A stretch of DNA of 64,000 nt from Parabacteroides sp. TM07-1AC (GTDB lineage: Bacteria; Bacteroidota; Bacteroidia; Bacteroidales; Tannerellaceae): positions 124,001 through 188,000 of the forward strand of contig NZ_QUKD01000010.1 of the NCBI RefSeq assembly GCF_003480915.1. The letters are read 5' to 3'. The position numbers and the translations under genes were made by a program. The notes under the pieces were generated by a model, which did not search any database, had not been told where the DNA came from, and saw only the letters and a program-made list of their open reading frames with translations. Shown here piece after piece: positions 24,046 to 42,249 of this stretch. Numbering within the stretch: position 1 is the first letter of the stretch; every line of letters begins with the position of its first letter.

Positions 24046-25044
24046 TTATACAATAGAATTCTTCTTTGTAAATTCAATGATCTCGCTGATATGGCCAAAA
24101 GCAAGACCTGTCACCGTATCAGCACAACCATAATAAATAGCGATACGATCCGATTCGGGATCATGCAAGGCGGCACATGGGAAAGTAACGTTAGGAACAT
24201 CTCCCATACATTCATACTCTTTCTGCGGAGAAAGCAGATAAGGACCTGTGCGATATTTAATCTTCCAGGGCTGATCCAAATCCAACAAGGCAGCACCAAA
24301 GCTATATACATAGCCGTTACAAGACTGTAACACGCCATGATAGATCAGCAACCATCCTTCCGATGTCTCGATAGGAATAGGACCTGCACCCACCTTCAGG
24401 CATTGCCATGCACTCACTTCGAACGGAGCCGGAGCCATCACATGACGATGTTTTCCCCAGAAACACATATCGGGAGATTCGCTGTAGAAGATATCGCCGA
24501 ACGGTGTATGCCCGTTATCACTCGGACGACTCAGCATGGCAAAATTACCGTTGATCTTACGCGGGAACATCACACCGTTACGGTTGAAAGGCAGATACGC
24601 ATTTTCCAGCTGGTGGAATGTTTCGAAATCGAACGTATAAGCTACACCGATTGTCGGGCCGTGATAGCCGTTGCACCAGGTGATGTAATAACGGTCTTCG
24701 ATGAAGCAGACGCGCGGATCATAAGCGTAAACAAACTTTCCGATCTCTTCGTCATCACATTCGAACTCCAGCTTTGTTTCAGAAATATTCCAATGGATAG
24801 CATCGGCACTGAAACCTACATGCAAACGCATACGGCGGTTCGTGTCGTCACAACGGAATACACCAGCATAGCCTCCCTTGAAAGGAACGACTGCACTGTT
24901 GAATACACTGTTGGATGTCGGGATGATATCACGCGGTATCACCGGGTTATTCGAATATCTCCAGATCACATCCTTACAATCGGCCGGGCGGTCTTCCCAA
25001 GGCATGTCAGGCAGCGGTTCGCCAATAATTTTCAGTTTATCCAT
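24046..25044 (-). CDS. GH130 beta-glycoside phosphorylase
   Basis: 332 residues, cytoplasmic (no signal peptide). Five-bladed propeller of family GH130, whose members break beta-mannosides with phosphate to give mannose 1-phosphate. Family marks: [52 protein letters not shown] and [20 protein letters not shown]. The exact linkage (Man-GlcNAc, Man-Glc or mannobiose) cannot be told. It is the last gene of a minus-strand cluster, 33 bp after the symporter, which would import its substrate. Confidence 0.88.
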
Positions 25045-25077
25045 TTTATCGATTTGTTTTAATTTGACAATACAAAG

Positions 25078-27024
25078 TTACTTCTTTTCGTCCAATTTCA
25101 ATTCTTTCATCAATTCATTATATTCCACTTCATCTTTGCTCATCTTGTCATACCAGTTCTTCTTCAGAACAAGCGTTGTGATGGCAAGGATCAGTACACT
25201 GGTCAGCAACGGCATACCTTCACGGATCACGATATACATCGGGATAATGGTCAGGCACATCTGCCAGATAATACCGATCGCCACATTGAACATATCACGT
25301 TTGAAGTTTTTGTTGGCTTTCACCTGCGGATATTTGGCAACCACCTTATCGTGAACCGGCTTCCAGAAACCCCACGGACGTATGGTAATATAGAAACGTT
25401 CAAGTGTCTCGTCTTCTACCGGAGGAGCGGAATAGGTACCGACCACACAACCGATCAAAGACACAACCAGCAATACCGGGAAGTAGAACAACGGCAACAT
25501 CGGAGCATTGTTGGCATATTCCCCTACTCTTTCTACGAAATGACCGTCCACCATCGTGTAACCGTCAAAGATAAACGGACAAACCATAGCAGCCAGGATA
25601 CCGGTGATCATTCCCCAGAAATAACCGTTACCATTGAAACGCCACCAGTGCCATTTCAATAGGTTAGCAGCAATATAACCTCCGTACAGAGCCGAAGTAA
25701 TCCATTGCAGCACGGAGTTCACACTCTCTACAAAGAATCCGATCACTACACTAACGACCACCACGCCGACTGTCACTATGTAGCTGGCACGGATCATCGT
25801 CTTGTTACTGGCATTCGGATTGATATATTTCTTGTAAATATCATTCACAATATAAGCGGGAGCCGCATTAGCGGTGGAAGCGAAAGTAGACATAAACGCC
25901 GCCAGCAATCCCGCCAGCAACAAACCACATACGCCAACGGGCACGAACTGGTTGATTGCATTCGGAAGAATCAGCTCAAAGTCGATCGCGCCTGTCTTTG
26001 TTGTCAAATCCAAATCCTTGAAGAAAGCCAGGGCAAGAATCGTGAAGCCCATGATCATCAGATAACGCGGGATCAGCAAGATTACGGGAACCGAACCACT
26101 CATCAAAGCAGCCTCTTTACCGCTACGGCAGGAAAGAATCTTCTGCATATCATAGTTAGGCGCAGGACCTGCCATACTATTGAATACTCCTTTAAAGAGC
26201 ATCATCATAATAAAGATTCCAAACAGGCCATACTGGTCATTCATAATCTTTTCATTCACGTCGCTGAAGATATCCGTCCATTTCAAGTCTAGCGTCCATC
26301 CGGGCATCAGACTGTCCCATCCGGCAGGCACGATAGAAGCCAGCATTTCCGGGCTTACCTTCATCATAGCGATAACGGCTATCGTAATACCAGCAACCGT
26401 CATTATGGCGAACTGCACCACATCGGTCCACACGATACTCAGCATACCGCCCAGCATCACATAGATGGTGGCAATAGCAGTAAAGAAGATACCGTAGGCA
26501 TGCGGCACATATTCTGCCGGAATATCGAATGGAACAAACTGGGAAACATAATCCCAGGGGAAGAATATTTCCATAAACTTACCCACACCGATAAAACCGT
26601 AGCTAAGGAATCCCAGCACACCGATCAGGGCATAGATAACAACAATTGTGTGTGACAAACTAGCACCTCTGTTCTTTCCGAAACGTGTCTGAATCCATTC
26701 AGCTCCTGTCAGCACATTCGAACGGCGCAGCCATACAGAAAGATAGACCATCAGAAAGATCTGGTTGAACACCGGCCACAGCCAGGGCACCCAGGCACTT
26801 TTAATTCCATAAATAAAGGCTAGTGTAACCATCCACATAGTACCAGAGATATCGAACTGGCCGGATGCGTTAGACAAGCCTAACATATAAAAAGGAAGAG
26901 TTTTACCTCCTAAGAAGTAGGAGTCCATGTTTTTCGACGCTCTTTTCTTCAGAATTAATCCGATTACGATCATTGCCACCAGATAAAGTCCGATGATAAA
27001 GATGTCGATTGGTTGCAATTTCAT
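25078..27024 (-). CDS. sodium:solute symporter (SSS family)
   Basis: 648 residues, about 14 transmembrane helices. N-terminus IDIFIIGLYLVAMIVIGL and the YFLGGKTLPFYMLGLSNASG loop are typical of SSS sugar/sialate symporters. TFASTANAAPAYIVNDIYKKY corresponds to the sodium-binding helix region. It should bring a sugar through the inner membrane with sodium. The start at 27024 was preferred over one 12 codons upstream because a promoter lies at 27058-27088. GH130 follows by 33 bp. Confidence 0.9.
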   Translation of the reverse strand: MKLQPIDIFIIGLYLVAMIVIGLILKKRASKNMDSYFLGGKTLPFYMLGLSNASGQFDISGTMWMVTLAFIYGIKSAWVPWLWPVFNQIFLMVYLSVWLRRSNVLTGAEWIQTRFGKNRGASLSHTIVVIYALIGVLGFLSYGFIGVGKFMEIFFPWDYVSQFVPFDIPAEYVPHAYGIFFTAIATIYVMLGGMLSIVWTDVVQFAIMTVAGITIAVIAMMKVSPEMLASIVPAGWDSLMPGWTLDLKWTDIFSDVNEKIMNDQYGLFGIFIMMMLFKGVFNSMAGPAPNYDMQKILSCRSGKEAALMSGSVPVILLIPRYLMIMGFTILALAFFKDLDLTTKTGAIDFELILPNAINQFVPVGVCGLLLAGLLAAFMSTFASTANAAPAYIVNDIYKKYINPNASNKTMIRASYIVTVGVVVVSVVIGFFVESVNSVLQWITSALYGGYIAANLLKWHWWRFNGNGYFWGMITGILAAMVCPFIFDGYTMVDGHFVERVGEYANNAPMLPLFYFPVLLVVSLIGCVVGTYSAPPVEDETLERFYITIRPWGFWKPVHDKVVAKYPQVKANKNFKRDMFNVAIGIIWQMCLTIIPMYIVIREGMPLLTSVLILAITTLVLKKNWYDKMSKDEVEYNELMKELKLDEKK

Positions 27025-27057
27025 GATATTGATTTTGTTTTTAGGTTTAACGTTTGG

Positions 27058-27088
27058 CAAAGATATATAAATAGTTGACAGTTGACAA
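27058..27088 (-). promoter_or_regulatory. internal promoter (TTG - 20 bp - TATCTTTG) whose -33 box is in the palindromic element
   Basis: Minus-strand -7 TATCTTTG at 27058-27065 and TTG at 27086-27088 with 20-bp spacing. The TTG lies inside the arm of the GTTGACA element (27073-27197). Predicted leader of about 27 nt to the symporter ATG. Confidence 0.6.
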
Positions 27089-27197
27089 GTGACAGTTGAC
27101 AGTTATTCCGGCTTTCAGCCGAATAGGTTCATTTTCATGAAACAAACTGTCACTTGTCAACTGTCAACTGTCAACTGTTAATTGTCAATTGTCAACT
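27073..27197. repeat. GTTGACA palindromic element, copy B (operon spacer)
   Basis: 125 bp filling the gap between the lipoprotein stop codon (27200-27202) and the symporter promoter. Left arm: four GTTGACA-like words. Right arm: about seven TGTCAAC-like words. The centre differs from copies A and C and contains the mini-stem CGGCT-TTC-AGCCG. Confidence 0.85.
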
Positions 27198-27199
27198 TG

Positions 27200-28087
27200 T
27201 TAGTCGATCGGACAAACAGAAGAGATCATGCCAAATGTGTCATTATCATTCAAGCTCCAGATCACTTTATTGTTACCGTCGATCTCCATCAACTGCGGAT
27301 TGTTCGATTCCTTTGCACTCGGATCGTGTCCCTGCCAGTTGCAGATATACAGACCGTTGTTTGATGTAGGCAGCAACTGAGCTACGAAGAACAGGGAAAC
27401 ACCTTCAATATCGGTAGCACCGATCTTACGGATCACTTCACCCTTATCCAGATTTACTTCCATCAAAGAATGTCCGTCACCGCAAGCGACCATATAATTG
27501 CCGTTGTCCAGCAATACAGTACTATACGGAGTACCTTCCAGCTTGGTTGTCCGAACCAGTTCGCCGGCAGGAGATATTTCACGCACTTCAGAAGTAGCGA
27601 AAAGAGGCATCAGGTAGTTGCCTGCCTTGTTCTTATTCACCTGGCGGAACTGAGCATGCGGATGGTCGATACCTGTTTCGTATTCTGTTTCAGAAAGAAT
27701 TTCACCCTTCGGGCTTACTTCCATGATCTTAGCCGGGTGTCCGCACCATGCCAACAGGTAGTTACCGTCAGGCAGGATACGTGCAGTCTGCATTTCGCAA
27801 GTATCAGGAGCTGCGATGTTCCATATTTCCTTCTGATCGCGGGAGATCAGCTTCGCACCTTTTTTATAAGCAAACAAAATGTTACCGTCCGGAGTAGCTA
27901 CAGCCGAGTTACATTCCCAACCTTTTTGCAAAGGATGTTCCCATTCAATCTGTTTGGTATTCTTGTCGATGATAACGACTTTATTCCAACCGGAACCGGC
28001 TAACAGTAATTTCTGAGCCTTCTGCTGGCAGGATGTAGCGGCAAGCAGGAAAAGAGCAGAGCACAATAATGTGAATATTTTCTTCAT
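27200..28087 (-). CDS. beta-propeller lipoprotein
   Basis: 295 residues. Lipobox LAATSC (Cys20) marks a lipidated envelope protein. The rest is a propeller with repeated blades of the PQQ-like/NHL kind, e.g. TPDGNILFAYKKG, LPDGNYLLAWCG and LDNGNYMVACGDG, each with D-G-N-Y/I-L. Such proteins bind a ligand or a protein partner; no catalytic residues are seen. It lies between the LsrF-like gene (79 bp) and the symporter, so it may bind the imported compound at the cell surface or in the periplasm (inference). Confidence 0.75.
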   Translation of the reverse strand: MKKIFTLLCSALFLLAATSCQQKAQKLLLAGSGWNKVVIIDKNTKQIEWEHPLQKGWECNSAVATPDGNILFAYKKGAKLISRDQKEIWNIAAPDTCEMQTARILPDGNYLLAWCGHPAKIMEVSPKGEILSETEYETGIDHPHAQFRQVNKNKAGNYLMPLFATSEVREISPAGELVRTTKLEGTPYSTVLLDNGNYMVACGDGHSLMEVNLDKGEVIRKIGATDIEGVSLFFVAQLLPTSNNGLYICNWQGHDPSAKESNNPQLMEIDGNNKVIWSLNDNDTFGMISSVCPID

Positions 28088-28125
28088 GGCAATTTCTATG
28101 TATTATGTTATGATTCAGATACAAC

Positions 28126-28152
28126 AAGGGGCAGAGTAGCGCCCCGCCCCTT
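28126..28152 (-). other. GC-rich hairpin between LsrF-like and lipoprotein genes
   Basis: AAGGGGC / GCCCCTT around a 13-nt GC-rich loop in the 79-bp gap. No T run follows, so it is more likely an RNA-stability or attenuation structure than a full terminator. Confidence 0.45.
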
Positions 28153-28166
28153 TGAAGTATAATTAA

Positions 28167-29039
28167 TTATTTAGATAAATCCTGGAACATTTCAAATCCT
28201 TGCTGCGGAGTCAAACCGTCATGAACCACTGCATGAACAGCCTGAATCATAGCAACCGGGTTTTCAGACTGGAATACATTACGTCCCATATCCACACCGG
28301 CAGCACCGTCGTTGATTGCTTTGTAGCACAGATCCAATGCTTCCAGTTCAGGCAATTTCTTACCACCTGCGATCACAACAGGAACCGGAGTAGCGGCAAC
28401 AACCTTTTCGAAACCTTCGCAATAGTAAGTCTTCACGATATTTGCACCGTTTTCAGCACAGATACGAGAAGCCAGACCGAAATAACGAGCATCGCGAGCC
28501 ATCTGTTTGCCGACAGCAGTTACACCCATTACAGGAATACCATAACGTGTACCTTTATCTACTGCCTTATACAAGTTTGCGATTGTTTTAGCTTCGTGTG
28601 CCTCGTCGCCGATAGCCAACATAACAGCCATAGCTGAAACGTTCATACGGATAGCATCTTCTATATCGATCAGAACATTGTCATTCAGTTCTGTCAGAAT
28701 AGATGTTCCGGCATCCGAACGCAAACAGATTGGTTTGTTTGTTGTAGTCGGGATAGTAGACTGAAGAATACCGCGTGTACACATAATACAATCAGCATAA
28801 TCAATCAGCGGTACGATATTCAAGTCGATACGTTCCAAACCTGAAGTCGGTCCCATAATGAAACCATGATCGAATGCCAACATTACAGCTTTGCCTGTCT
28901 TCGGGTTGAAGATACGGGATAAACGATCTTTCATACCCCAGGGAAGGTTTTCAGCACCCTTCACATGGAAACTTTGTTGTTGAGAGTTAACACCTAAACC
29001 GAAGTTTGAGCCTTCTCTCAAATCATCTAAATCTGCCAT
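28167..29039 (-). CDS. LsrF-type class I aldolase/thiolase
   Basis: 290 residues, cytoplasmic. Closely resembles E. coli LsrF from end to end as I recall it: start MADLDD, WGMKDRLSRIFNPKTGK, AFDHGF.MGPTSGLERIDLN, the Schiff-base lysine at residue 203 in VKTYY, and VVIAGGKKLPELEALD. LsrF cleaves phospho-AI-2 with CoA to DHAP and acetyl-CoA. Here no lsrK, lsrG or lsr transporter is nearby; DhaL and DhaK are adjacent instead. The real substrate may thus be another phosphorylated keto-sugar. ATG at 29039 was chosen because it matches the LsrF start. Confidence 0.85.
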   Translation of the reverse strand: MADLDDLREGSNFGLGVNSQQQSFHVKGAENLPWGMKDRLSRIFNPKTGKAVMLAFDHGFIMGPTSGLERIDLNIVPLIDYADCIMCTRGILQSTIPTTTNKPICLRSDAGTSILTELNDNVLIDIEDAIRMNVSAMAVMLAIGDEAHEAKTIANLYKAVDKGTRYGIPVMGVTAVGKQMARDARYFGLASRICAENGANIVKTYYCEGFEKVVAATPVPVVIAGGKKLPELEALDLCYKAINDGAAGVDMGRNVFQSENPVAMIQAVHAVVHDGLTPQQGFEMFQDLSK

Positions 29040-29075
29040 TTTTCTATTTTCTATATTAAAAAGTGAATTATTCAA

Positions 29076-29690
29076 TTATAATGCTTCTGCAAAAGAGGCT
29101 AACATGCAGCTCCATGATGTAGCACCGCTATCGGCATAACCGATAGAACGTTCACCGTAGTTACGGGCACGTCCGAAGTTCGCTTTCATATCTACTGTTT
29201 TCTTTGCACCTTCCAAAGCTGCGTTGGCACCAGCTGTCATGATTTCCTTGATGTCGTCCGATTCACAAGCCTGAATAGCTTCGATAGCAGGAACCAAAGC
29301 GTCCATCATCGTTTTGTCGCCCGGTTGTGCTTTTGTCTGTTTCTGCACGTTGGCAAGGCCGCCGGCAAACATTTTCTTCACACCTTCGGCATCCAGTTCG
29401 GTTCCGGCAGCGCTGTCGCTCATGCCAAGGAAGAATGCACCTAACAGGGTACTTGTCGATCCGCTGGTTTCCAGCATCACGCCAAATCCCATATCATTCA
29501 GCATAGATTTAAATTCCGTTCCTTTTTCCGAGCCTTTAACGACAACAGAGAAAGCAGTTACGATAGCCTGTCCGTGATCGCCGTCACCGATTACCGCATC
29601 CAGTTTGGAAAATTCGTCTTCGCGGGCTTTGATATGCGTTAGGGCGTTATTCAGCATACCTTTGAAAGCCTCAATAGTCAGTTGTTTCAT
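29076..29690 (-). CDS. dhaL: dihydroxyacetone kinase subunit L
   Basis: 204 residues. ADP/ATP-binding subunit of a Dha-type kinase, an all-helical barrel. The magnesium motif GDGDHG (35-40), LETSGSTSTLLGAFF and GDKTMMDAL are intact. In PTS-type systems DhaL is recharged by DhaM; no dhaM is present here, so the kinase may use ATP directly. It lies 9 bp after dhaK and 36 bp before the LsrF-like gene. Confidence 0.9.
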   Translation of the reverse strand: MKQLTIEAFKGMLNNALTHIKAREDEFSKLDAVIGDGDHGQAIVTAFSVVVKGSEKGTEFKSMLNDMGFGVMLETSGSTSTLLGAFFLGMSDSAAGTELDAEGVKKMFAGGLANVQKQTKAQPGDKTMMDALVPAIEAIQACESDDIKEIMTAGANAALEGAKKTVDMKANFGRARNYGERSIGYADSGATSWSCMLASFAEAL

Positions 29691-29699
29691 GTTATTTGT

Positions 29700-30716
29700 T
29701 TATTTACCAATAGTTGTCCAATACGGTGCGTTTGCACTCTTGTTCTTCAAATAATCGATGTGGTCTGCATCCAAAATACCCATGATCATCTGGAAACCAG
29801 CCTGTTCCTGAACTGTCAGGATTTCCTGGATACGGCCGAATACTACTTCCAAACCACGAGCTTCCAGTTCTTTGTAAGCTTTGCGGAAAATAATATTCAA
29901 TTCCATGTGAGTAGTTGCACCTACACCGTTGATGATAAGCATCATCTTGTCACCGGCTTTCGGCTGCAGTTGCTGGCAAAGCAGATCAACCATTTCAGCA
30001 GCTGTAGCGTCGGCAGATACTAACGGTTTCTGACCGCCACCACCTTCACCGTGCTGTCCCATACCGATTTCCATAACACCGGCAGGCAGGTCAGTGATTG
30101 TAGCATTGTTCTGCGGATGTGTACAAGAGCGCATAGCAACAGCCAAAGTAGCTACTTTTTCGTTATAACGTTCGCCGATCTCGATCAGTTCATCCAAAGA
30201 CTTGCCTTCGTCTGCAGCAGCACCCAGGATTTTATACAAAGGAACGCAACCAGCCAGACCACGACGATCTTCTGTCGGTGCGCCGATACCTGCACTGATA
30301 TCATCATGAGTCAGGATCTGTTTTACTTTGATACCTACGCGTTCTGCCAACTGGCATGCCATGTTTGCACTCATCACGTCACCAGAATGGTTCAATACAA
30401 CCAACAGGATACCGGCTTCACGTTTCATCAACTGCAAAGCCTGGAACAGACGCTGTGCACCCGGAGCTGCGAATACGTCGCCCACTACAGAGCAATCCAG
30501 CATACCGTCGCCAACGAAACCGCTCAATGCAGGTTCGTGACCGGAACCGCCCAAAGTAACGATAGCTACTTTATCTTCGCTTTTCGGATTTGCACGTACT
30601 ACGATATTTTCTCCAGCCAGTTTAACCTGGTCAGGATAAGCCAGTACATAACCTTCCAGCAATTCCGGAGTTATTTGTTCAGGATCATTTATAAATTTAG
30701 TCTTAATTTCTGCCAT
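29700..30716 (-). CDS. dhaK: dihydroxyacetone kinase subunit K
   Basis: 338 residues. Substrate-binding subunit: GGSGHEP (56-62), GDVFAAPGA and the histidine that binds the carbonyl of the substrate, His222 in GMGQHGEGG. Together with DhaL it would phosphorylate dihydroxyacetone or a similar short hydroxyketone. DhaK relatives are known to act on erythrulose and other ketoses, so the substrate is open. A strong SD sequence precedes it. Confidence 0.9.
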   Translation of the reverse strand: MAEIKTKFINDPEQITPELLEGYVLAYPDQVKLAGENIVVRANPKSEDKVAIVTLGGSGHEPALSGFVGDGMLDCSVVGDVFAAPGAQRLFQALQLMKREAGILLVVLNHSGDVMSANMACQLAERVGIKVKQILTHDDISAGIGAPTEDRRGLAGCVPLYKILGAAADEGKSLDELIEIGERYNEKVATLAVAMRSCTHPQNNATITDLPAGVMEIGMGQHGEGGGGQKPLVSADATAAEMVDLLCQQLQPKAGDKMMLIINGVGATTHMELNIIFRKAYKELEARGLEVVFGRIQEILTVQEQAGFQMIMGILDADHIDYLKNKSANAPYWTTIGK

Positions 30717-30725
30717 GGTGTTTTT

Positions 30726-30753: not shown

Positions 30754-31080
30754 TTATTTAATTTCCATTAATTCGATAGCGATGCCTTCTTCTTCGATGA
30801 AAGCAATAGTAAGATGTTCGTCGCATACAGCCGGACCGAAGATAACTTTTGCATCTTTCAGCGCTTCTTCCAATGAAGGAACCGTGTAAGCGATATGACC
30901 ATTCGTTTTAACCAGATCAGGCAAGCAGCTGGCAGCAGGATCGTCAAATTTCAGAAATTCGATCTTGTTAGGACTCTTGCTGTAATCGGTTAACCATACG
31001 TTCAAGCCTTCGTTGAACATTGCACCTTCTTTCTGTTCGTTGGTAAGGATACCTACATGATTATAAGTTCTCATGATCAT
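30754..31080 (-). CDS. VOC-family (glyoxalase-like) small protein
   Basis: 108 residues. The fold pattern is that of a single vicinal-oxygen-chelate module: YNHVGILT at the N-terminus, HIAYTVPSLEEAL in the middle, and the final EEEGIAIELMEIK strand with the metal-ligand-like Glu. His and Glu ligands therefore appear present. Such proteins isomerise or open small ketones or lactones. It sits between ccsBA and dhaK, so it may act on the same keto-compound. Start uncertain (Met1 or Met3). Confidence 0.7.
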   Translation of the reverse strand: MIMRTYNHVGILTNEQKEGAMFNEGLNVWLTDYSKSPNKIEFLKFDDPAASCLPDLVKTNGHIAYTVPSLEEALKDAKVIFGPAVCDEHLTIAFIEEEGIAIELMEIK

Positions 31081-33671: not shown

Positions 33672-36600
33672 TTAGTCTTCGATAATTACACGGAAACCTA
33701 CGTTAAATACACGCTGATACGGATAGTATGCTTTACGTGCATAAGCTGTAGAGAATTTCGGACGTTCGATATATGAACCACCACGAGCCACTTTGTGGTC
33801 GGAAGTCAGTTTTGACTTCGGATTATAAGGATAAGGTACATAATCTGAACGGGTCCATTCTGACACATTACCGTGCATGTTATACAAACCGAACGGGTTG
33901 GCTTCGTAAACCTTCTCGCCTGTCTGGATCAACTGACCATCGTCTACACCTTCTTCTTTCGGCAGATAAGTATAATACTTATACCACATAGAATTTGGAG
34001 ACATAGGTTTCGGGTCAACACCACTTACCGCGAACAGTAAAGTAGTTTTGTCAGCCAAGTTCTCATATTTACCGAAGTCTGTATTCATATCACCATACCA
34101 GAAATCACTGTTGCTACCTGCGCGACAAGCCCATTCCCATTGTGCTTCTGTCGGAAGCGTAATGTTCAAGCCTGTCTTTTCGCTCAGTTTCTTACAATAT
34201 TCCATAGCATCGTTGTAGCTTACACGGATAACCGGTTGATTCGGCTCGTTAGCCGGATAACCCTGTACCACGTGGTCTTTCCATAACTGGTCTACGAAAC
34301 GGCTGTCGTGATCCGGATTGATTACGTTAAACTGCTGGTTGGTTACTTCCATTTCACCCATCCAGAACGGTTTGTCGATCTTCACTTTAGCTGTAGGATA
34401 AGCATCCGATTCGCCATTGTAGCTACCCATTACGAATTCACCTGCAGGAATACGAACGAAATTGATCTTCACACCCGGAGCGATTTCCACCTCTTTGCGA
34501 TTGCTGGTTTCCTTGGCAAGCATGTCTTTGATAGCAGCTTTGTCGAACGGCCAACCTTTAGCCTTCACTTCTTTCACCTTTACAGGAGCCGCCTTTTCAG
34601 GCATAACCGGAGTAATCGGACCCTGTGCTTTCAAATAAGAAGCATAGTCAGCGATTTCCTTCTTCCAGTCTACACCCATACCGTTAGCATACTTGTCAGT
34701 CAGTTCCTTACGACGTTCGATCTGATCGAATCCCTGGTATGGAATAATTTCCTTACCCAGAACATTGGCATCGAAGTAACCTTTATCAGGAGCGTTATAG
34801 TCAATCCAGTTGTACAGTTTCAACCATTCTGCATCTGTCAGTTTCACGTTATGGTGACCTTTCTTCAGGATACGAACCAATTCACTGGTGTTCGGATGAT
34901 ATTCATACGGCTGAAGAACAACCATATCACCTTCACCGCCCTGACGATGTACGTACGGATGGATATTCAAGTAAGAAGTACCATAACCCAGTTTGTCTTT
35001 CTTACCGCCGCGCAAGTCGAATGCTTTGCCTTCGCCATTGTGACAAGCGATACAAGCACGATCCAGGATCGGCTGAATTTCCAGGTCGAATGTAAATGAA
35101 CGAACGCCACCTTCCGGAGCTCTCAAAGGAGCAGCAGCTTTCTGAGAAGCCATTACACGCTTAGGAATAGGAATCTGGTTCTGGTCTTCGTGACAACCGA
35201 TACAAGAAACCACTTCACCCGGCTGACCAGTTACCCAACTACGCATCCACTGAACAGCAACGCCATCCTTATCGATTGGCTGGATAGAGATCGGTGTATT
35301 AGCCGGAACTTTGAAGATTGCTGAACCGTCTTCTTCAACAGGAACAGTACCTAACAAACGTTTGATATCCCAACCACTCTGAATACCATGCCAGTTATGG
35401 TCAGAACGAGTCTTCACATAAGCATATTCGTAAGCATGCAGACGAAGCTCCTTTACAGTTCCGCGAGGAATACCGCGCAGACCTTCACCTTCATAAATAT
35501 CCTGAATAAAGATAGTAGCTTCTTTTTCATTCAACTTCACACGATCAGGAATTGCCGGAGGAGTTTTAGTTTCCTTCACCAGGATCGGGCTGATATAACC
35601 TTCACCCTCTGCCTGCATCAAACAAGTTACGTTATCATAGATGTCGACCAGATAAAGTCCCCACAATGACTGAGGATTCAATTTGGCAGCAACCAGGAAA
35701 TATTTGTCGTTCAACGGAGTCGGTTTTACGAACTGCGGCCATACACCATTTACCAGTTCGTCTTTGATCAGCTCCTGGATAGGACGGTTACGATGAGGAA
35801 TTTCCTGTACCATACCCTGAACATTCTTACGGCCTTTTGTCGGATCGAAGATAATCAGACGTCCTGAACGGGCAACCCCGTGGTGACCGGAAATGATACC
35901 TACGAAAGCAGAGCCATGCCCTGGCAACGGTTGGATATCGAATGTACTGTTCGGGAACATTGAACCGCTACCATACAGTGCTTTGTTCTCCGTTCCGTCC
36001 GGGTTCATATGCATTACGATACGAGAATAGTAGTGAGTCAGGTCAGTATATTCCCAACGAGTGTACATCACACGTCCGTTGTTCATAACAACCGGGTTCC
36101 AGTTTGCATCCTGGTCGAAAGTCAAACGACGCAGGTTCTTTGTCTGCGGAGTATACAGAACCATATTACCTACCGGGTCATCACCGCTTACACAAGGAAC
36201 ACCCTGGTAACCGATGTTAGAGTTAGCGATAATACGTCCGTCCGGCAGATAAGTACCGTCATAAAATTCCAGATCCGGCTCTTCGTTTTCTACCAGTTTT
36301 TTGCAACCTGTTCCGTCCAGCTTCACTTCATATACGTTCCAACGTTTATCGTTTTCACCCATCAAAGTCGTGAACATTACGCGGTCAGCATTCCAGTGCA
36401 TTCTCAGGTCAGCGATAGAAGCATCAGCTACGATCGGTTTGAAAATGCTCTTCATCTGCATATCGCCACGCAGGTTTGTCAGCTCGATGATCTCTGCATT
36501 GAAACCGCTACGACGTGCAGATTCCTGGTTACTCCAGTTATTAGCCTGTGTACCCAGGTCCGGCGCCATTGCCTGACGTGCTCTTGAACCTAATTTATAA

Positions 36601-37682
36601 CGTACAGCGACGATCTTGTCAGCATCCAGCAGCGGGTTACCCACCAGGATAGCCTTTTTGTTTTCCAATGCTTTGCGGGCATCAGCCATTGCTTGTTCGT
36701 CACCTTTATAAATACCGCTGAAACCTTTCTGCTGAAGTTTTACCAATTCGTCCAGCATCGGCTGATACTTGGCTGCATCAAAACCTTTCTGCTTGCTCAT
36801 ATCTGCAAATGCCAACTTGATAGCATCGACATTCAGCCATTCCAGGTCACCCTGCAATGCATAAACATCCTGAAGTTTTTCAAACAGTTCCAGATATTTG
36901 CGGATCTGAGTATTTACATCTTTCTCGTTGGCGATCTGCTGAACGACACTCTTATAATAAGAACCGTCTTTCAACTTTCCGATCATAGCGTCTACTGCCT
37001 GTTTTTCAACAGAAGCATCCGGAGTGATCAGCCATGTATCCAAACCGTCCATCATAGCGCCCAGCATACCGATCTGTTCCGGATATTTAGCGATCAGTTC
37101 GTCGCCAACAAATTTCGGAACCACATTCAATGCCTGGAAATACACGCTACCGCCGGAAGAAGTATCGTCGATACCTACTTCAGCTTCAAAGCGAACGTAT
37201 TCACCTTTAACAGGATAAACCAAAGTTCCGTTTGCATGGCAGAAAACACCGTGTTTGTATTCTTTGCCGGCAATGAAAATCTCATGGTCGTAAGCGTTAA
37301 TATTCATTTTAGGCTTTGCCCAACCGGCAACACCATATTCGAAAGGAACTTCATCCAACCAAACAGCAGTACCGTCCGCTTTGATCAAACGAGCGTTACC
37401 CCAAACAGCCTGGTCGTAATCAGTACCATCGGGACCTCCGGCAGTGATAAGCACCAACTTATCCACGCCTTTCAAATCCACAGCAAAAGGCTCTGCTTTT
37501 TCTTTATGCTTCTTCCAAGTGGAAATAACTGGCATATTAGCCTTCTGAAGCTGAGTCTGCAGTTCTGTTTTTGCTTTAATTGATGCATCAATCCAAGTAT
37601 CCGCCTTCTTTTGTTTCGGACCAGCCGAAACAAGGAAGGATGTGGATAAAAAGAGTGATACTAATAAAAAATATTTATTCAT
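33672..37682 (-). CDS. exported NPCBM / beta-propeller / diheme cytochrome c / FGE-like fusion protein
   Basis: 1336 residues. Signal peptide 1-20. An NPCBM-like carbohydrate-binding domain (about 65-187, ending IDDTSSGGSVYFQAL); helical linker 190-350; TolB/PD40-type propeller with the middle region seen in hydrazine-synthase-alpha-like proteins (about 390-810); heme sites CIGCH (827-831) and CIACH (877-881); then an FGE-sulfatase/SUMF1-like domain (about 1068-1334: IPAGEFVMGS, LPTEAQWEWACRAG, GNVSEW, RGGSY). The paired catalytic cysteines of true formylglycine-generating enzymes are not seen, so that domain is probably for binding. Likely a periplasmic or surface redox protein acting on a glycan. 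Cupin gene 44 bp upstream, ccsBA downstream. Confidence 0.8.
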   Translation of the reverse strand: MNKYFLLVSLFLSTSFLVSAGPKQKKADTWIDASIKAKTELQTQLQKANMPVISTWKKHKEKAEPFAVDLKGVDKLVLITAGGPDGTDYDQAVWGNARLIKADGTAVWLDEVPFEYGVAGWAKPKMNINAYDHEIFIAGKEYKHGVFCHANGTLVYPVKGEYVRFEAEVGIDDTSSGGSVYFQALNVVPKFVGDELIAKYPEQIGMLGAMMDGLDTWLITPDASVEKQAVDAMIGKLKDGSYYKSVVQQIANEKDVNTQIRKYLELFEKLQDVYALQGDLEWLNVDAIKLAFADMSKQKGFDAAKYQPMLDELVKLQQKGFSGIYKGDEQAMADARKALENKKAILVGNPLLDADKIVAVRYKLGSRARQAMAPDLGTQANNWSNQESARRSGFNAEIIELTNLRGDMQMKSIFKPIVADASIADLRMHWNADRVMFTTLMGENDKRWNVYEVKLDGTGCKKLVENEEPDLEFYDGTYLPDGRIIANSNIGYQGVPCVSGDDPVGNMVLYTPQTKNLRRLTFDQDANWNPVVMNNGRVMYTRWEYTDLTHYYSRIVMHMNPDGTENKALYGSGSMFPNSTFDIQPLPGHGSAFVGIISGHHGVARSGRLIIFDPTKGRKNVQGMVQEIPHRNRPIQELIKDELVNGVWPQFVKPTPLNDKYFLVAAKLNPQSLWGLYLVDIYDNVTCLMQAEGEGYISPILVKETKTPPAIPDRVKLNEKEATIFIQDIYEGEGLRGIPRGTVKELRLHAYEYAYVKTRSDHNWHGIQSGWDIKRLLGTVPVEEDGSAIFKVPANTPISIQPIDKDGVAVQWMRSWVTGQPGEVVSCIGCHEDQNQIPIPKRVMASQKAAAPLRAPEGGVRSFTFDLEIQPILDRACIACHNGEGKAFDLRGGKKDKLGYGTSYLNIHPYVHRQGGEGDMVVLQPYEYHPNTSELVRILKKGHHNVKLTDAEWLKLYNWIDYNAPDKGYFDANVLGKEIIPYQGFDQIERRKELTDKYANGMGVDWKKEIADYASYLKAQGPITPVMPEKAAPVKVKEVKAKGWPFDKAAIKDMLAKETSNRKEVEIAPGVKINFVRIPAGEFVMGSYNGESDAYPTAKVKIDKPFWMGEMEVTNQQFNVINPDHDSRFVDQLWKDHVVQGYPANEPNQPVIRVSYNDAMEYCKKLSEKTGLNITLPTEAQWEWACRAGSNSDFWYGDMNTDFGKYENLADKTTLLFAVSGVDPKPMSPNSMWYKYYTYLPKEEGVDDGQLIQTGEKVYEANPFGLYNMHGNVSEWTRSDYVPYPYNPKSKLTSDHKVARGGSYIERPKFSTAYARKAYYPYQRVFNVGFRVIIED

Positions 37683-37726
37683 GTATCTTTATTAAATAAG
37701 GTAATAACAACTACGATTGAATATCA

Positions 37727-38446
37727 TTAAAGAGAAGCCTTAGGATTTGTAAAACGAAGGCCGTCGTTATCATGGTAACATGCCCATTCGTCAACAATAG
37801 CACCTTCCGGACCTGCCATCATGAAGTGGAATGATTCCAGTTCTTTCAAGCGTAATACATCGCCTACATTCTGAACAACAAAGTTTTTGCTCTTGATAGC
37901 GCCATGACTTGCAGGAATTGCCGGAGCATTCGGAGTTTCGTCACCAATTACAGAGAAGTTATAAACCCATCCCTTTTCAACCATCCATGATTCATGTTTT
38001 GCAGGGAATTTAGTTTTTACGTGAGCGTGTTCAGGGATCATCTGTCCCGGAAGCAGGTAGATAGCGTGAGCAAAATATCCGTGTTCTGCATCGTTGATCC
38101 AGAAAATACCGCCCATACCAACGTTTTCAAAGTCACCCAGACCGAAGTCGGTAACCCACATGTCTTTAGCCATCAGTTCTGTGAAAGGTACATCATAAAA
38201 TTTAAACATGTCTTTCATAGCTTCGATAGCTACTTTCTGATCGAATTTGCCGTCTTTGTAGAAGTCGGCGTTTGTGTACTTCTTAGAATACTTCATTTCC
38301 TTATTATTTTTAGTGTTATCACAAGTGCATTGTTCAGGACATTCAGTCGCATCAGCTGTCTTGTTAGCAGTGTTTCCTGTACAAGCGACCATAGAGCATA
38401 AAGCCAGCCCCATAGTCATCATTTTTAAGTTCAATCCTTTTTTCAT
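37727..38446 (-). CDS. cupin-domain lipoprotein
   Basis: 239 residues. The signal ends in SMVAC (Cys22), so it is lipidated. A Cys-rich, flexible linker (about 22-48) is followed by one cupin barrel with IPEHAH and KHESW, the usual metal-binding His/Glu pattern, and a last His in ESFHFM. It resembles D-lyxose-isomerase-like cupins, but those are cytoplasmic sugar isomerases; export here is unusual. It might isomerise or oxidise a sugar in the periplasm. Placed between the RidA/chorismatase-like gene (69 bp) and the fusion cytochrome gene (44 bp). Confidence 0.7.
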   Translation of the reverse strand: MKKGLNLKMMTMGLALCSMVACTGNTANKTADATECPEQCTCDNTKNNKEMKYSKKYTNADFYKDGKFDQKVAIEAMKDMFKFYDVPFTELMAKDMWVTDFGLGDFENVGMGGIFWINDAEHGYFAHAIYLLPGQMIPEHAHVKTKFPAKHESWMVEKGWVYNFSVIGDETPNAPAIPASHGAIKSKNFVVQNVGDVLRLKELESFHFMMAGPEGAIVDEWACYHDNDGLRFTNPKASL

Positions 38447-38515
38447 TTTGTTTTTAATTTATGTTAGTAATATTTGCTATTTTTCGTCAAACGGTCAACA
38501 TCATCCCAAACAGGA

Positions 38516-39610
38516 TTACAACACTGCTATTCCCTCAATCTCTATTAATAATTCATCCCGGCAAACATCAGCCCACATATAAGATATGGGGATATTCAAC
38601 CCGTATGCATTTAAAAGTCTTTCTGACTCTTCATAGAAAGACTTATCTTTCAGATAGACCCGAAGCATTTTAAGCTTTGCTTCACCTATCAGCTCCGCTA
38701 TATTCTCCATCGTGATATGAAGCTGACGATCCAGCCCCACTCCTATCAGGCTTTCTTCGCCACGAATGGCAGCCGTACCCGATATATAAACCAACTCACG
38801 ATCACCGAACGTCATACTTTTGGCACGTTCGAACTTCGGAGTCGTCTTCTTGCAATGAGCTGCTTCCAGCACACCTTCTGAATAAGCATGGGCAGCTACT
38901 TGCAATTTGTTATCGATCGGTGTTGCATAGCAATCCGGATTCGAGAACAAGGCTGCATCCAGATCAACCAATATACCTCCCAGGTTTGCACCGATACCTG
39001 TTGCTGCCGGGTAGCCGTTCTCCCAAGTCGTCATAGCATAATAGTCGCTACGGGCATTATTGAATATCTGGTAATGCTGGTCTTCCCCATCAAATTTCGT
39101 GATCTGCTCGATATAATTCCACTGACGGATGATACTATTGATAGGGAAACCTTCCTTTCTCAACAAGTCGGATACCAGCTTGAACACTTCCTTCGACTGC
39201 TGCTCGATACCAAAATTAATAACATCACCGTGGAAACCGCCGGCAAACAAAAAACGACCGCTGCCATTTTCCAGCAACACATACGGGAATGTCCCGATAT
39301 ATTTATAGGTTATATGGTCACCTTCATCCGGTGTATACATATGAGCTTCCAACACCAGCCCACCGTTCAACGGAGGCTGAGAGACATAAGTCAATACCGG
39401 CTCATGGTTCCCATAATATTTACGTACCCTCTCACGCAGTATGATACGACGTGAAACATATTGTTCATTATCACTCGGTGTGCCGAAAAAGGCCAACCTG
39501 AATATTTGTTTGTCACGCGGTAATTGAGCTAATAGCTTATCTACCATTATTTCAAAACCCGCCTTCTCCGTAGAATAAATGTTATAGTGTATCTTATCGC
39601 AATAATTCAT
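38516..39610 (-). CDS. RidA/chorismatase-like protein
   Basis: 364 residues, no signal peptide, so cytoplasmic. The C-terminal part (about 230-362) has the YjgF/RidA look (VYISGTAAIRGEESLIGVG, then LRVYLKDKSFYEESERLL and IEGIAVL), and the whole layout resembles the FkbO/Hyg5 chorismatase group, which has two RidA-like halves. RidA proteins deaminate reactive enamines; chorismatases cleave chorismate. The role here is unknown. It starts 12 bp after the diheme gene with a strong SD sequence. Its presence among redox and sugar genes is odd. Confidence 0.6.
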   Translation of the reverse strand: MNYCDKIHYNIYSTEKAGFEIMVDKLLAQLPRDKQIFRLAFFGTPSDNEQYVSRRIILRERVRKYYGNHEPVLTYVSQPPLNGGLVLEAHMYTPDEGDHITYKYIGTFPYVLLENGSGRFLFAGGFHGDVINFGIEQQSKEVFKLVSDLLRKEGFPINSIIRQWNYIEQITKFDGEDQHYQIFNNARSDYYAMTTWENGYPAATGIGANLGGILVDLDAALFSNPDCYATPIDNKLQVAAHAYSEGVLEAAHCKKTTPKFERAKSMTFGDRELVYISGTAAIRGEESLIGVGLDRQLHITMENIAELIGEAKLKMLRVYLKDKSFYEESERLLNAYGLNIPISYMWADVCRDELLIEIEGIAVL

Positions 39611-39615
39611 CGATC

Positions 39616-39622
39616 CCTCCTT
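39616..39622 (-). promoter_or_regulatory. Shine-Dalgarno AAGGAGG before RidA/chorismatase-like gene
   Basis: AAGGAGG, 5 nt before the ATG at 39610 and directly after the TAA of the diheme gene (39623-39625). Confidence 0.65.
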
Positions 39623-41395
39623 TTAGAGTGAATTTACATATTCAACCAAAGCCTCAATATCTTTCTTGGACACTTTCTTATCGATTCCATGTTTGTGCAC
39701 TTCAAAGACTTCTTCCATTGTAGCTGCACGGCCATCGAAAAGATAAGGAGCCGTACGCCAAACTTCCCTTAAAGTCGGAGTATCCCATCCCTTTTCAAAT
39801 TCAACATCTTCACCAATGCGATGATATTTCATATCTGTATAATAAGGTCCGCTATGACATTCGCCACATTTCAGTTTTTCAAACACCTTGCGTCCTTCTT
39901 TTGCCAGATCCGACAGTTCACCATTTACCAAAAGAGGACTTGGTACCGGACGCAATGCTTTCAGATATTCATCCACACAGACGGCATCTTCTTCAGAAAT
40001 ATCAAAGAACTGAATGAAATTATATCCTGCACGTACAGCAATCTCTGCATGGGCACGGATACCGGAGATCATATTCGGAGGTGTCACATGGCTAAACAAC
40101 ATGCTCTTACAATTCTTGGAATTACCAACACCGTCATTCATCAAATCCCAGTTCATACCGTCCGTACGCGCATCACCCGGATGGCAGCCGTTACAGCTCT
40201 GCCAGTTCTGGAAACAGTGGGAGGCATCATTGAAATACTTTTCCCCTTTATTGATATCGGATTCAGTACGTCCCGGATTCAGCTCCGTAGCAGTGATTTC
40301 CCGTGTGTTTATATCCATCACATTCAGGACATCCGCAAAATAAGTAGGAATGATCAACTTTCCATCGGTAAGTACCATCGAACGCGGACCGTTGCCCTGC
40401 AAAGGAATACGTTCGCGAATACCATACAGGAAGTTCAGGTCATAATCCAATACAGCTTTATTGGGATATGCTTCAAACTTCTCACGCAAAGCCGGGTGAT
40501 CGATCACACTGACTTCGTGCGTTCCCGAATGAGATATATAAATATGGTCGTTATCACAATCGATACTCCAGATACCGGCAGCACCTCTTTCCGGCTCGTC
40601 GACAACAACGGCACCGACAAATTCCTGCTTTTCCGTATCAATGATACTGAAAGCACTTGTATTCATCCAGCCCTGTTGCAACTGTGAAGTCGGCACGGCA
40701 AAACGTCCGAGGTTGTGAGATACATAAACATACTTTCCGTCCGGTGTAATACAAATGCCACGCAAAGCATTACTACCGTTAGCCAGCTTAATATCTTTTA
40801 CTTTGGTAAAACCATCCATTTCGATCACGGAAACACAGGCAGCCACATAATCCAGGTCCGCACGCTGTGCCGGAAGGAAATTGGTTACGTACATATATTT
40901 ACCGTCCTTGCTGAACACGGCGGACTTCGGTTCACGCAATACTTTTACCTTGCGCAATACTTTATGATTGACAGGATCAACTTCCGATACACTGTTATCA
41001 AACTGGTTACATACATAAATAGCCTTCTTGTCCGGTCCGAACATCGGATGGCAAGCTCCCGATCCTGTAGGGATAGCAGCTTCTATCCTGCCCGACTCCA
41101 ATAACAGTATCTGCAGCTTTCCGGTCTCTTCAAAGGTTGTCACATACGCCTTGTCGCCATCAACCAGGATACCGGTCGGTATTTCGTCCATGGGATAAGA
41201 ATGCAACAATTTGCCGTCAGGAGAAAAAATATCGACCCGCTTCACACCTTTCTCGGTCAGAAACATTTCTCCTTTATTATTCAGTTTTATATCGGTCGTA
41301 AAAAACGGAGGATTGTCAGCCGATGCCAATGAGACACAGCAACTGACAAAGCAAGCCATTAACGAAGTTTTTAATATGTATTTCTTAGCTTTCAT
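39623..41395 (-). CDS. exported beta-propeller diheme cytochrome c (MauG/CCP-like C-terminus)
   Basis: 590 residues. Signal peptide about 1-26. Residues 30-370 form a YncE-like seven-bladed propeller (repeated V-x-x-I-D and T-P-D-G-K-Y-V-Y-V-S blades). Residues 380-590 hold two heme sites, CNGCH (401-405) and CGECH (510-514), and the sequence DTPTLREVWRTAPYLFDGRA, typical of MauG/cytochrome c peroxidase C-terminal domains. It probably oxidises a substrate or partner in the periplasm. It follows the IclR gene by 9 bp and needs CcsBA for maturation. Confidence 0.82.
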   Translation of the reverse strand: MKAKKYILKTSLMACFVSCCVSLASADNPPFFTTDIKLNNKGEMFLTEKGVKRVDIFSPDGKLLHSYPMDEIPTGILVDGDKAYVTTFEETGKLQILLLESGRIEAAIPTGSGACHPMFGPDKKAIYVCNQFDNSVSEVDPVNHKVLRKVKVLREPKSAVFSKDGKYMYVTNFLPAQRADLDYVAACVSVIEMDGFTKVKDIKLANGSNALRGICITPDGKYVYVSHNLGRFAVPTSQLQQGWMNTSAFSIIDTEKQEFVGAVVVDEPERGAAGIWSIDCDNDHIYISHSGTHEVSVIDHPALREKFEAYPNKAVLDYDLNFLYGIRERIPLQGNGPRSMVLTDGKLIIPTYFADVLNVMDINTREITATELNPGRTESDINKGEKYFNDASHCFQNWQSCNGCHPGDARTDGMNWDLMNDGVGNSKNCKSMLFSHVTPPNMISGIRAHAEIAVRAGYNFIQFFDISEEDAVCVDEYLKALRPVPSPLLVNGELSDLAKEGRKVFEKLKCGECHSGPYYTDMKYHRIGEDVEFEKGWDTPTLREVWRTAPYLFDGRAATMEEVFEVHKHGIDKKVSKKDIEALVEYVNSL

Positions 41396-41404
41396 GGTAT
41401 GTTG

Positions 41405-42214
41405 TTATTTTTTTTGTGTTTTACTATATCCTAATTCTCCTGAGATGTTTTGTGCCACCTCCTTGATATTCGCAACCGTCGAACGGAATATCTCTTTTGT
41501 CAGCCTGTCTTTGGGTCCGGATATCCAAATCGCCCCACAAGGATATCCTGTATAATTAAATATAGGAGCGCCAACACATATAACTCCATTCAATTCTTCT
41601 TCATTATCCATAGCATAACCTAACTTACGGACTTTTTCCAGTTCCTCCAGATAGGCTTCCCGGGTAGTTATTGTCCGCGCATTATACTTCTCAAATGTCA
41701 TATACGACAAATAACGGTCGCGGACCGTGTTTGGCAGATAAGCCATAATCGCTTTTCCGGGTGCTGAACAATGCAGCTCGAATGGTTTTCCCGGTGATAA
41801 TACAAAACGGAACGTATGATGTCCCTGCGCTTGTTCTATAAAAATACCCTTTTGATCTCCTAATACACCAAAACAGGCAGTCTCACCCACTTTATCACGC
41901 AAATCGCGCAAACAAGGCAATACTGTCTCCAACAAATTATGTTCATTCAACGATCTGAAGCCCAAAGTTAACAATTTTCTCGATAACTTGTATCGCTTTG
42001 TGTCTTCATTATAGTTAAGGTAATCCAAACGAACCAATGTATTCAAAATACGGTAAGCGGTAGTCTGTGAAATATCCAGCTTGTTTTTAATATCCTGAAG
42101 CGCCTCACCTTGCGGATGGAGCGAAAGATATTCAAGCACCGCTATCCCTTTTTCCAGATTCGGCACCTTATAATTCTCTTCACCTTTTTCCATATTTGGA
42201 ATAACGCTTTCCAT
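41405..42214 (-). CDS. IclR-family transcriptional regulator
   Basis: 269 residues. Winged-helix domain about 18-80 (KGIAVLEYLSLHPQG, SQTTAYRILNTLVRLDYL) and an IclR ligand-binding domain about 95-260 (CSAPGKAIMAYLP, ELNGVICVGAPIFNYTGYPCGAIWISGP). It is the first gene of the cytochrome/sugar cluster and probably its local regulator. Repeated operator-like sequences cover its start and promoter, which suggests autoregulation. There are two possible starts, Met1 (42214) and Met8 (42193), in duplicated surroundings. Confidence 0.88.
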   Translation of the reverse strand: MESVIPNMEKGEENYKVPNLEKGIAVLEYLSLHPQGEALQDIKNKLDISQTTAYRILNTLVRLDYLNYNEDTKRYKLSRKLLTLGFRSLNEHNLLETVLPCLRDLRDKVGETACFGVLGDQKGIFIEQAQGHHTFRFVLSPGKPFELHCSAPGKAIMAYLPNTVRDRYLSYMTFEKYNARTITTREAYLEELEKVRKLGYAMDNEEELNGVICVGAPIFNYTGYPCGAIWISGPKDRLTKEIFRSTVANIKEVAQNISGELGYSKTQKK

Positions 42215-42249
42215 ATTTGAAATATTGTTTCAGATTTGAATCAAATATA
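42188..42249 (-). promoter_or_regulatory. IclR promoter with tandem operator-like palindromes
   Basis: -7 box TATATTTG on the minus strand at 42242-42249. Palindromes: TTCCATATTTGGAA (42188-42201), a near copy TTCCATATTTGAAA (42209-42222) exactly 21 bp on, and ATTTGAATCAAAT (42234-42246) overlapping the -7 box. Spacing is about two helical turns. Confidence 0.55.

Follow-up and report, generated by a model that had tools for sequence, protein, structure and literature searches.

A conserved Bacteroidales gene block in which hydrazine-synthase-like heme proteins adjoin DhaKL and an LsrF-like aldolase

Results

A cluster with two exported diheme proteins and a DhaKL-LsrF module

In a 64,000-nucleotide stretch of DNA from Parabacteroides sp. 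TM07-1AC (NZ_QUKD01000010.1, positions 124,001-188,000, forward strand; hereafter the window), thirteen open reading frames (ORFs), all on the minus strand and separated by gaps of 0-139 bases, fill positions 24046-42214 (Table 1). An initial annotation had described them as an IclR-led block joining periplasmic cytochromes c with DhaKL and an LsrF-type aldolase, and we confirm the thirteen-gene cluster, including two CXXCH motifs and a signal peptide (judged by eye) in each of the two exported diheme proteins. What had been overlooked is that both heme proteins resemble hydrazine synthase (HZS) of anammox bacteria. The family names were upheld by Pfam and NCBIfam scans except in two cases: Pfam, NCBIfam and PHROGs gave no match for the protein labeled VOC, and the cupin, without a match in Pfam and NCBIfam, was placed by PDB matches. 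Among the loci fetched for comparison, the closest is that of Parabacteroides faecis, in which the proteins of nine core genes out of ten are 94-99% identical to those of the window and the cupin 87%.

Table 1. Genes and operator-like element of the cluster, listed from the regulator end (window coordinates).
Feature	Coordinates	Strand	Length (aa)	Basis or remark
Operator-like element TATATTTGATTCAAATCTGAAA...ATTTCAAAT	42215..42249	-		directly before IclR start; opens with a Bacteroides -7-like box
IclR-family regulator	41405..42214	-	269	nearest NCBIfam model BhcR, far below cut-off (182.6 vs 350 bits)
HZS-like beta-gamma fusion	39623..41395	-	590	N-terminal beta-propeller and MauG/HZS-gamma-type diheme domain; exported
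FkbO/Hyg5-like chorismatase-family protein (RidA-type)	38516..39610	-	364	family scans; no signal peptide by eye
Cupin lipoprotein, related to D-lyxose/D-mannose isomerases	37727..38446	-	239	PDB matches 7nzo (4.9e-10) and 2y0o (1e-7)
HZS-like alpha subunit	33672..37682	-	1336	NPCBM, helical part, propeller, HZS_alpha domain, two heme sites, C-terminal FGE-like domain
CcsBA, cytochrome c synthetase	31114..33558	-	814	CcsB model, 168 vs cut-off 187.6
VOC-labeled small conserved protein	30754..31080	-	108	label only, from the initial annotation
DhaK, substrate-binding subunit of dihydroxyacetone-kinase-like enzyme	29700..30716	-	338	family scans; H222
DhaL, nucleotide-binding subunit	29076..29690	-	204	family scans; GDGDHG motif
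LsrF-like thiolase/aldolase	28167..29075	-	302	57% identical to E. coli LsrF
Mala_s_1-like beta-propeller lipoprotein	27200..28087	-	295	family scan; lipobox by eye
SSS-family symporter, accessory	25078..27060	-	660	at that position only in some Parabacteroides; MFS transporter instead in others
GH130-family protein, accessory	24046..25044	-	332	beside the cluster only in Parabacteroides loci among those examined

The heme proteins correspond to hydrazine synthase subunits

By sequence and predicted fold, the heme pair consists of the alpha subunit and a fused beta-gamma of an HZS-like complex, so that all three HZS subunits are represented. For both proteins the best structural match of the predicted fold was 5c2v, the HZS of Kuenenia stuttgartiensis, and HZS entries head the VIA-align lists (37.3 vs 30.7; 28.9 vs 22.9), with propellers of unrelated function ranking below. 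All four c-type heme motifs are kept in alignment with 5c2v, as CXXCH at residues 827 and 877 of alpha and 401 and 510 of beta-gamma. The Parabacteroides pair thus shares with the Kuenenia enzyme its subunit composition, the propellers, the HZS_alpha domain, an even split of the four heme motifs between alpha and gamma, and a beta-gamma gene upstream of alpha; it differs in the fusion of beta with gamma, in the NPCBM and FGE-like domains of alpha, in the absence of the four catalytic-site residues tested and in the sugar genes that surround it. The structure model of beta-gamma is too poor in its diheme part (predicted local distance difference test score, pLDDT, below 50 at residues 400-450 and 515-558) to judge heme geometry from. 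Matches of the gamma half include di-heme peroxidases and the MbnH/MauG models, the HZS chains scoring above the peroxidases.

The HZS residues that matter include gamma Cys165, Asp168 and His144 and alpha Tyr591 (PMC12607021 and PMC12758564). In alignments to HZS, Cys165, which forms a third covalent bond to heme gamma I, is not kept, the loop being shorter and the next Cys (473) aligning 20 positions on; Asp168, near the same heme, is lost within the same shortened loop. The position of His144 is occupied by an invariant Ile443 (alignment A2). Tyr591, the ligand of heme alpha I four residues after the CXXCH His, corresponds to Asn835, with no Tyr within 12 residues after the motif; this position was counted from the motif, as the alignment to 5c2v ends one residue past it. 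Gamma Glu122 corresponds to Asp421, and the HG pair close to the gamma C-terminus hardly varies. The alpha propeller holds one invariant Cys, Cys497, in a region with no residue-level alignment to HZS Cys303, a zinc ligand that, according to PMC12758564, is not kept in all anammox bacteria. Both proteins fall short of the NCBIfam HZS equivalog or exception cut-offs (108 vs 1250 and 40.8 vs 800 bits).

Some relatives of alpha are without NPCBM; all four of those scanned that belong to this alpha type have the FGE-like domain. A notion that shorter alpha ORFs lack the FGE-like domain was discarded after this Pfam check, as three of the four are short and it is NPCBM that the short ones lack. That the domain is a working formylglycine enzyme is unsupported, the C-terminal stretch being, by eye, without the Cys pair that we take to be the mark of such an enzyme.

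HZS homologues outside anammox bacteria, including Bacteroidota beta-gamma homologues, are already published in PMC12758564. In the sections consulted, that paper assigns them no function, and FG-GAP-repeat and binding-protein genes are the sole neighbors mentioned. The statement in the initial annotation that it knew of no described pathway with this set agrees with the open-access literature searched, in which we found no description of a DhaKL-LsrF operon with HZS-like proteins or of its metabolic context. The Parabacteroides pair resembles clades I-IV of the paper (Planctomycetota, Desulfobacterota and others) in that alpha and a fused beta-gamma are co-located and HZS residues are missing. 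It differs in having neither extra N-terminal hemes nor CRTAC1 or binding-protein neighbors, in a gene order reversed relative to clades I-III and in its place within a DhaKL-LsrF block; Cys165 is present in clade I and a Trp stands at the His144 site in clades I-III, and our pair has neither. This comparison is one of features rather than of a joint tree. The arrangement of clades I-III (alpha upstream of beta-gamma with an FG-GAP/CRTAC1-family neighbor) is not that of the cluster.

The block is conserved and its genes co-occur

The loci compared were the best 80 of 251 relatives of the chorismatase-like (FkbO) protein in one-per-species genomes; since they were fetched with this protein, the counts lean to clusters holding it, and a sample of 295 genomes served as counterweight. 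Gene presence was scored by tblastn of the window proteins. Beta-gamma was found in 62 of the 80 loci, alpha in 58 and both in 57, while 17 had neither, several of these on short contigs. Thirty-five loci of at least 20.8 kb with both HZS genes are referred to as fully covered. The gene-neighborhood check, set beforehand as a refutation test, found the order IclR, beta-gamma, FkbO, cupin, alpha, CcsBA, VOC, DhaK, DhaL, LsrF to be identical in 20 of these 35, with the core genes on one strand in every one; the block that the initial annotation had described is thus kept together in other genomes. Individually, the cupin was present in 33 fully covered loci, DhaK with DhaL in 30, the VOC-labeled gene in 30, CcsBA in 29, IclR in 27 and LsrF in 29, at least one locus ending before LsrF. 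A second arrangement (beta-gamma, FkbO, cupin, VOC, DhaK, DhaL, LsrF, propeller, alpha, CcsBA) is seen in Bacteroides cellulosilyticus, B. timonensis, B. oleiciplenus and B. stercorirosoris; B. neonati shares it, with IclR in front. B. cellulosilyticus and B. stercorirosoris have a gene for 3-deoxy-D-arabino-heptulosonate 7-phosphate (DAHP) synthase between alpha and CcsBA, and a Phocaeicola metagenome-assembled genome (MAG) has one behind its propeller gene. Twenty regions were fetched that surround LsrF and extend past it; in 14 of them the Mala_s_1-like gene comes next after LsrF or after the site that LsrF would occupy. Two copies of the heme part accompany two copies of the LsrF part in both B. 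clarus and B. nordii; one of the two beta-gamma copies of B. nordii (G015, C107:101586-103352) is split over three frames, the second (C103) being one open frame. In a Prolixibacteraceae locus (L117), LsrF is followed by a tandem pair of HZS-like alpha genes (57% and 40% identity).

The counterweight sample comprised 295 genomes of the order of P. gordonii, which was itself included as the center and chosen for having the cluster. Beta-gamma matched in 21 of them at E 1e-40 or better, ten of these at no less than 57% identity. LsrF (at least 68%) was found in eight genomes and DhaK (at least 72%) in the same eight, all among the ten with beta-gamma (Fisher p 3.5e-14, kinship ignored); LsrF, DhaK and beta-gamma lie within 13 kb in six of the eight and are split over contigs in two. 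A ninth LsrF match, of 42% identity, is in a genome (G082) without a match to DhaK or beta-gamma, and among the genomes with the six weaker DhaK matches (32-36%) outside the eight, G049 and G211 have only more distant beta-gamma types. FkbO-like proteins, in 27 of the 295 genomes, are less tied to the cluster. The conservation counts and the co-occurrence in the sampled genomes together indicate clustering beyond chance.

A shared operator-like element precedes the regulator gene

The palindromic element TTTGATTCAAA, followed by TCTGAAA, opens with TATATTTG, which resembles what we take to be the Bacteroides -7 consensus, and ends at the IclR start codon; its upstream end coincides with the limit of 42249 that the initial annotation had set for the cluster. 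The 19-base core has one perfect match in the window, and the only other match there within 3 mismatches is the same palindrome on the opposite strand (0.1 expected). In 20 of 50 IclR upstream regions, the window included, the element beats the maximum of 1000 single-base shuffles, these shuffles being the null and the tail of the scored consensus being one base out of register. Being shared by IclR upstream regions, the element fits one autoregulated promoter that might serve the whole block. A search of the window for Bacteroides -33/-7 promoters gave 4 matches against 1.4 expected, none of them inside the cluster.

The predicted enzymes

The LsrF-like protein aligns with E. coli LsrF over 285 positions and scores above the cut-off of the LsrF NCBIfam model NF006081 (465.9 vs 297). 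Its K215, kept in 16 of 16 ORFs of at least 270 residues, aligns with LsrF Lys203, which we take to be the active-site lysine. LsrF cleaves 3-hydroxy-2,4-pentanedione-5-phosphate with coenzyme A (CoA) to dihydroxyacetone phosphate (DHAP) and acetyl-CoA. Because of the 57% identity and the active-site lysine, the substrate of the Parabacteroides enzyme is probably this compound or one close to it. The kinase resembles dihydroxyacetone kinases DhaKL in that the Dak1 and Dak2 domains both score above cut-off, DhaK H222, the active-site His, is kept in 43 of 43 and D36, D38 and H39 of the DhaL motif are kept in 41 of 41. It differs from them in that no DhaM was recognized in the cluster and both subunits stay under the NCBIfam equivalog cut-offs (DhaK 283.8 vs 406.25, DhaL 131.5 vs 138.3). 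The E. coli Lsr pathway for autoinducer-2 (AI-2) likewise combines LsrF, of which ours is an orthologue-grade protein, with a kinase and an isomerase-like protein, and differs in that Parabacteroides has DhaKL in place of LsrK, an IclR regulator and heme proteins. No LsrK, LsrG, LsrR or LsrACDB was recognized among the window neighbors or in the fetched regions.

The cupin aligns over about 150 residues with D-lyxose/D-mannose isomerases, including the H-x-H, E and H that we presume to be metal ligands; it differs from them in being distant and, from a lipobox seen by eye, a lipoprotein. The chorismatase-like protein shares the fold family of Hyg5/FkbO, and its C350 and E357 match Hyg5 Cys327, to which we assume a functional role, and Glu334, the Glu being present in 75 of 75. 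Because both residues are kept, 3-hydroxybenzoate is a plausible product. The catalytic role of Glu334 is given in PMC7170507. The protein misses the chorismatase TIGR04444 cut-off (89.9 vs 325 bits) and, unlike Hyg5/FkbO, does not lie in an antibiotic cluster. FkbO-like and CcsBA genes are also paired in Tannerellaceae without HZS genes nearby (L030, L063, L032, L039 and others), a recurrence that suggests that cytochrome c maturation and the chorismatase-like protein are connected in a separate way. When 11 genomes of loci without HZS genes were searched for beta-gamma, no match or only short weak ones were found.

Accessory and neighboring genes

The initial annotation had counted GH130 and the symporter as cluster members; in our comparison the pair stands outside the conserved core and adjoins the cluster only in some Parabacteroides (P. 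goldsteinii, P. gordonii, Parabacteroides sp. 52). A role in beta-mannoside use led by GH130 is weakened by this and makes a poor general guess. GH130 with an MFS-type transporter was seen in 2 of the 20 extended regions; P. chinchillae and P. bouchesdurhonensis combine FkbO-CcsBA with an MFS-type transporter and GH130 in genomes without HZS-like beta-gamma of this type. Relatives of the symporter (53-68%) in B. congonensis, B. neonati and B. nordii are on contigs other than that of the cluster. In P. gordonii (L085, L095; G002:C2:1436355-1440803) the cluster-adjacent symporter gene consists of two fragments separated by about 2.5 kb, a picture that resembles an insertion event.

Directly upstream of the cluster, on the same strand at 42314-49409, lies an ABC exporter block (two permeases, two ATPases, a membrane fusion protein, a TolC-like protein and TetR, with names given by eye except for the first permease). 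Its nearest gene adjoins the cluster in just 5 of the 35 fully covered loci. Elsewhere in the window are a protein with two 3-keto-disaccharide hydrolase domains (PF06439, DUF1080; 11980-13356), Gfo/Idh/MocA family proteins (21739-23172 and 56931-58289) and a urea transporter (PF03253; 55524-56381).

Other HZS-like loci in the order

Among eight fetched loci with 37-47% beta-gamma relatives, L125 and L126 hold genes for an FGGY kinase, a Zn-dehydrogenase, DeoC, alpha, beta-gamma and a propeller protein, so that a paralogous HZS-like pair again stands beside a C5-type kinase and a PF01791 aldolase. In L125 the kinase exceeds the xylulokinase cut-off (397 vs 380 bits) and also matches the AI-2 kinase model (240 vs a 528-bit cut-off), and DeoC scores 262 vs 117. 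Of six more distant loci (25-28% beta-gamma relatives; L130, L131, L133, L136-L138), all have alpha upstream of beta-gamma with a CRTAC1-type neighbor, FG-GAP and UnbV_ASPIC domains being confirmed in L130 and L138. With their FG-GAP/UnbV (CRTAC1-type) and periplasmic-binding-protein genes they resemble clade III of PMC12758564. DAHP synthase is found in four of them (L131, L136, L137 and L138; 461 vs 335 in L138) and a RidA-type gene in three (L131 and L138 by Pfam, L136 by match to them); L138 also has radical SAM and Asn-synthase-like genes. In two Alistipes MAGs (L066, L072; families scanned in L066 only), KduI and GH88-like genes lie near alpha, beta-gamma, FkbO and a gene for an iron alcohol dehydrogenase; both loci are without the cupin and without DhaKL-LsrF.

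Discussion

We tentatively propose that the block is one IclR-controlled catabolic operon, expressed as a single transcript, in which a periplasmic heme complex and an isomerase would make an AI-2-type dione to be cleaved by way of DhaKL and LsrF. Alpha and the fused beta-gamma would associate in the periplasm into a tetraheme complex homologous to HZS and matured by the operon's own CcsBA. Outside the cytoplasm, an aldose-ketose isomerase such as the lipid-anchored, lyxose-isomerase-like cupin could turn a 5-deoxypentose into the 5-deoxypentulose; with electrons presumably passing from substrate to heme, the complex might then, in a single two-electron oxidation at C4, turn a 1-deoxy- or 5-deoxypentulose into an AI-2-family pentane-dione. 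The propeller lipoprotein may act alongside the heme complex and the cupin in this conversion. The candidate dione, unphosphorylated 3,5-dihydroxypentane-2,4-dione, would suit DhaKL because it ends in CO-CH2OH like dihydroxyacetone; once phosphorylated by DhaKL inside the cell, it would be cleaved by LsrF with CoA to DHAP and acetyl-CoA. Most of the conserved enzymes would find a place in this scheme, the isomerase and the heme complex outside and the kinase and the thiolase inside, the VOC-labeled and propeller proteins being the ones without an assigned step. In its favor stand the conserved gene order with the shared operator-like element, the co-inheritance of LsrF, DhaK and beta-gamma, the LsrF and cupin matches and the paralogous HZS-like pair beside a kinase and an aldolase in L125 and L126. 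We infer for the chorismatase-like protein a supporting role, the supply of an aromatic chorismate product that might serve as electron carrier or cofactor.

Several observations weigh against this catabolic operon. Two of the ten beta-gamma genomes in the 295-genome sample are without an LsrF orthologue, one of these beta-gamma genes lying near a contig end, and B. congonensis and a relative (L045, L047) keep the periplasmic part without VOC-DhaK-DhaL-LsrF, so that the two halves can part. Conversely, the locus L019 has FkbO-CcsBA-VOC-LsrF-GH130 in a genome without HZS-like beta-gamma. The chorismatase-like protein is not strictly tied to the heme complex either, since FkbO-CcsBA occurs without HZS-like beta-gamma in other Tannerellaceae and the L140 cluster is without an FkbO-like frame. 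A kinase-aldolase neighborhood accompanies only two of the eight loci with 37-47% relatives, and DhaKL could act on plain dihydroxyacetone.

It is rather unlikely, in our estimation, that the pathway scavenges AI-2/DPD (4,5-dihydroxy-2,3-pentanedione) or 1-deoxypentosones without any oxidation. The 1-deoxypentosones are Maillard products chemically identical to AI-2/DPD. The cupin or the VOC-labeled protein would then carry out an LsrG-type ketol shift, DhaKL would stand in for LsrK and LsrF would cleave the product, with the heme complex making the dione from a larger precursor or serving otherwise. The quality of the LsrF match, the isomerase-like cupin and the resemblance of the paralogous FGGY kinase of L125 to the AI-2 kinase model speak for such a route; against it, no Lsr transporter, LsrK or LsrG was recognized among the neighbors, and the conserved heme complex and CcsBA are left without explanation.

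Quite unlikely is a function of the HZS-like pair as an enzyme like MauG or cytochrome c peroxidase (CCP), acting on peroxide or another small oxidant, with the linkage to sugar genes reflecting stress on the substrate. The matches of the gamma half to di-heme peroxidases and to MbnH/MauG models point that way. Yet HZS chains outscore the peroxidases, the catalytic Trp site of CCP/MauG (the HZS His144 position) is Ile443, the co-occurrence with LsrF and DhaK is near-perfect, and we know of no counterpart of HZS alpha in di-heme peroxidases.

We also consider it quite improbable that the block is biosynthetic, making an aromatic or quinone-like compound out of chorismate. DhaKL and LsrF would then deal with C3 and C2 units, and completion of the product outside would fall to the heme proteins. 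Such a role would accord with the conserved catalytic Glu of the chorismatase-like protein and with DAHP synthase both in the Bacteroides and Phocaeicola clusters named above and in four of the six CRTAC1-type loci, three of the four also with a RidA-type gene. LsrF, DhaKL, the transporter and GH130 look catabolic, however, FkbO can be missing from the cluster, and IclR regulators usually control catabolic genes.

That a periplasmic heme module and a DhaKL-LsrF module are independent and merely share an operon seems very unlikely. The loci L045 and L047 without the second module, the differing gene orders of the two main arrangements and the L019 genome, which has LsrF and no HZS-like beta-gamma, would all fit this, but the heme part is present in 8 of 8 sampled genomes with LsrF at 68% or more, and B. 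clarus and B. nordii have both modules in two copies. Finally, that the complex is a true hydrazine synthase or forms N-N bonds of another kind, to which the subunit set and the four heme motifs might point, has hardly any probability left: the loss of gamma Cys165, Asp168 and His144 and of alpha Tyr591 and scores far below the equivalog cut-offs speak against it, and PMC12758564 concludes the same for its non-anammox homologues.

Chorismatase-like or RidA proteins and DAHP synthase recur beside two separate HZS-like subfamilies. Conceivably, although on balance we doubt it, the Bacteroidales HZS-like tetraheme complexes are a new class of periplasmic enzymes acting on carbon substrates with a chorismate-derived helper, coupled to LsrF- or DeoC-type cleavage. 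If so, the anammox hydrazine synthase would have branched off from an older family of heme enzymes that process carbon compounds. Because the operon belongs to culturable gut bacteria and includes enzymes whose activities can be guessed closely (LsrF, DhaKL, the lyxose-isomerase-like cupin), the function of the HZS-like family and the origin of the anammox enzyme are open to genetic and biochemical tests. Should the catabolic operon that we propose prove true, the ways in which gut Bacteroidales use sugars would also include one that runs through periplasmic cytochrome c.

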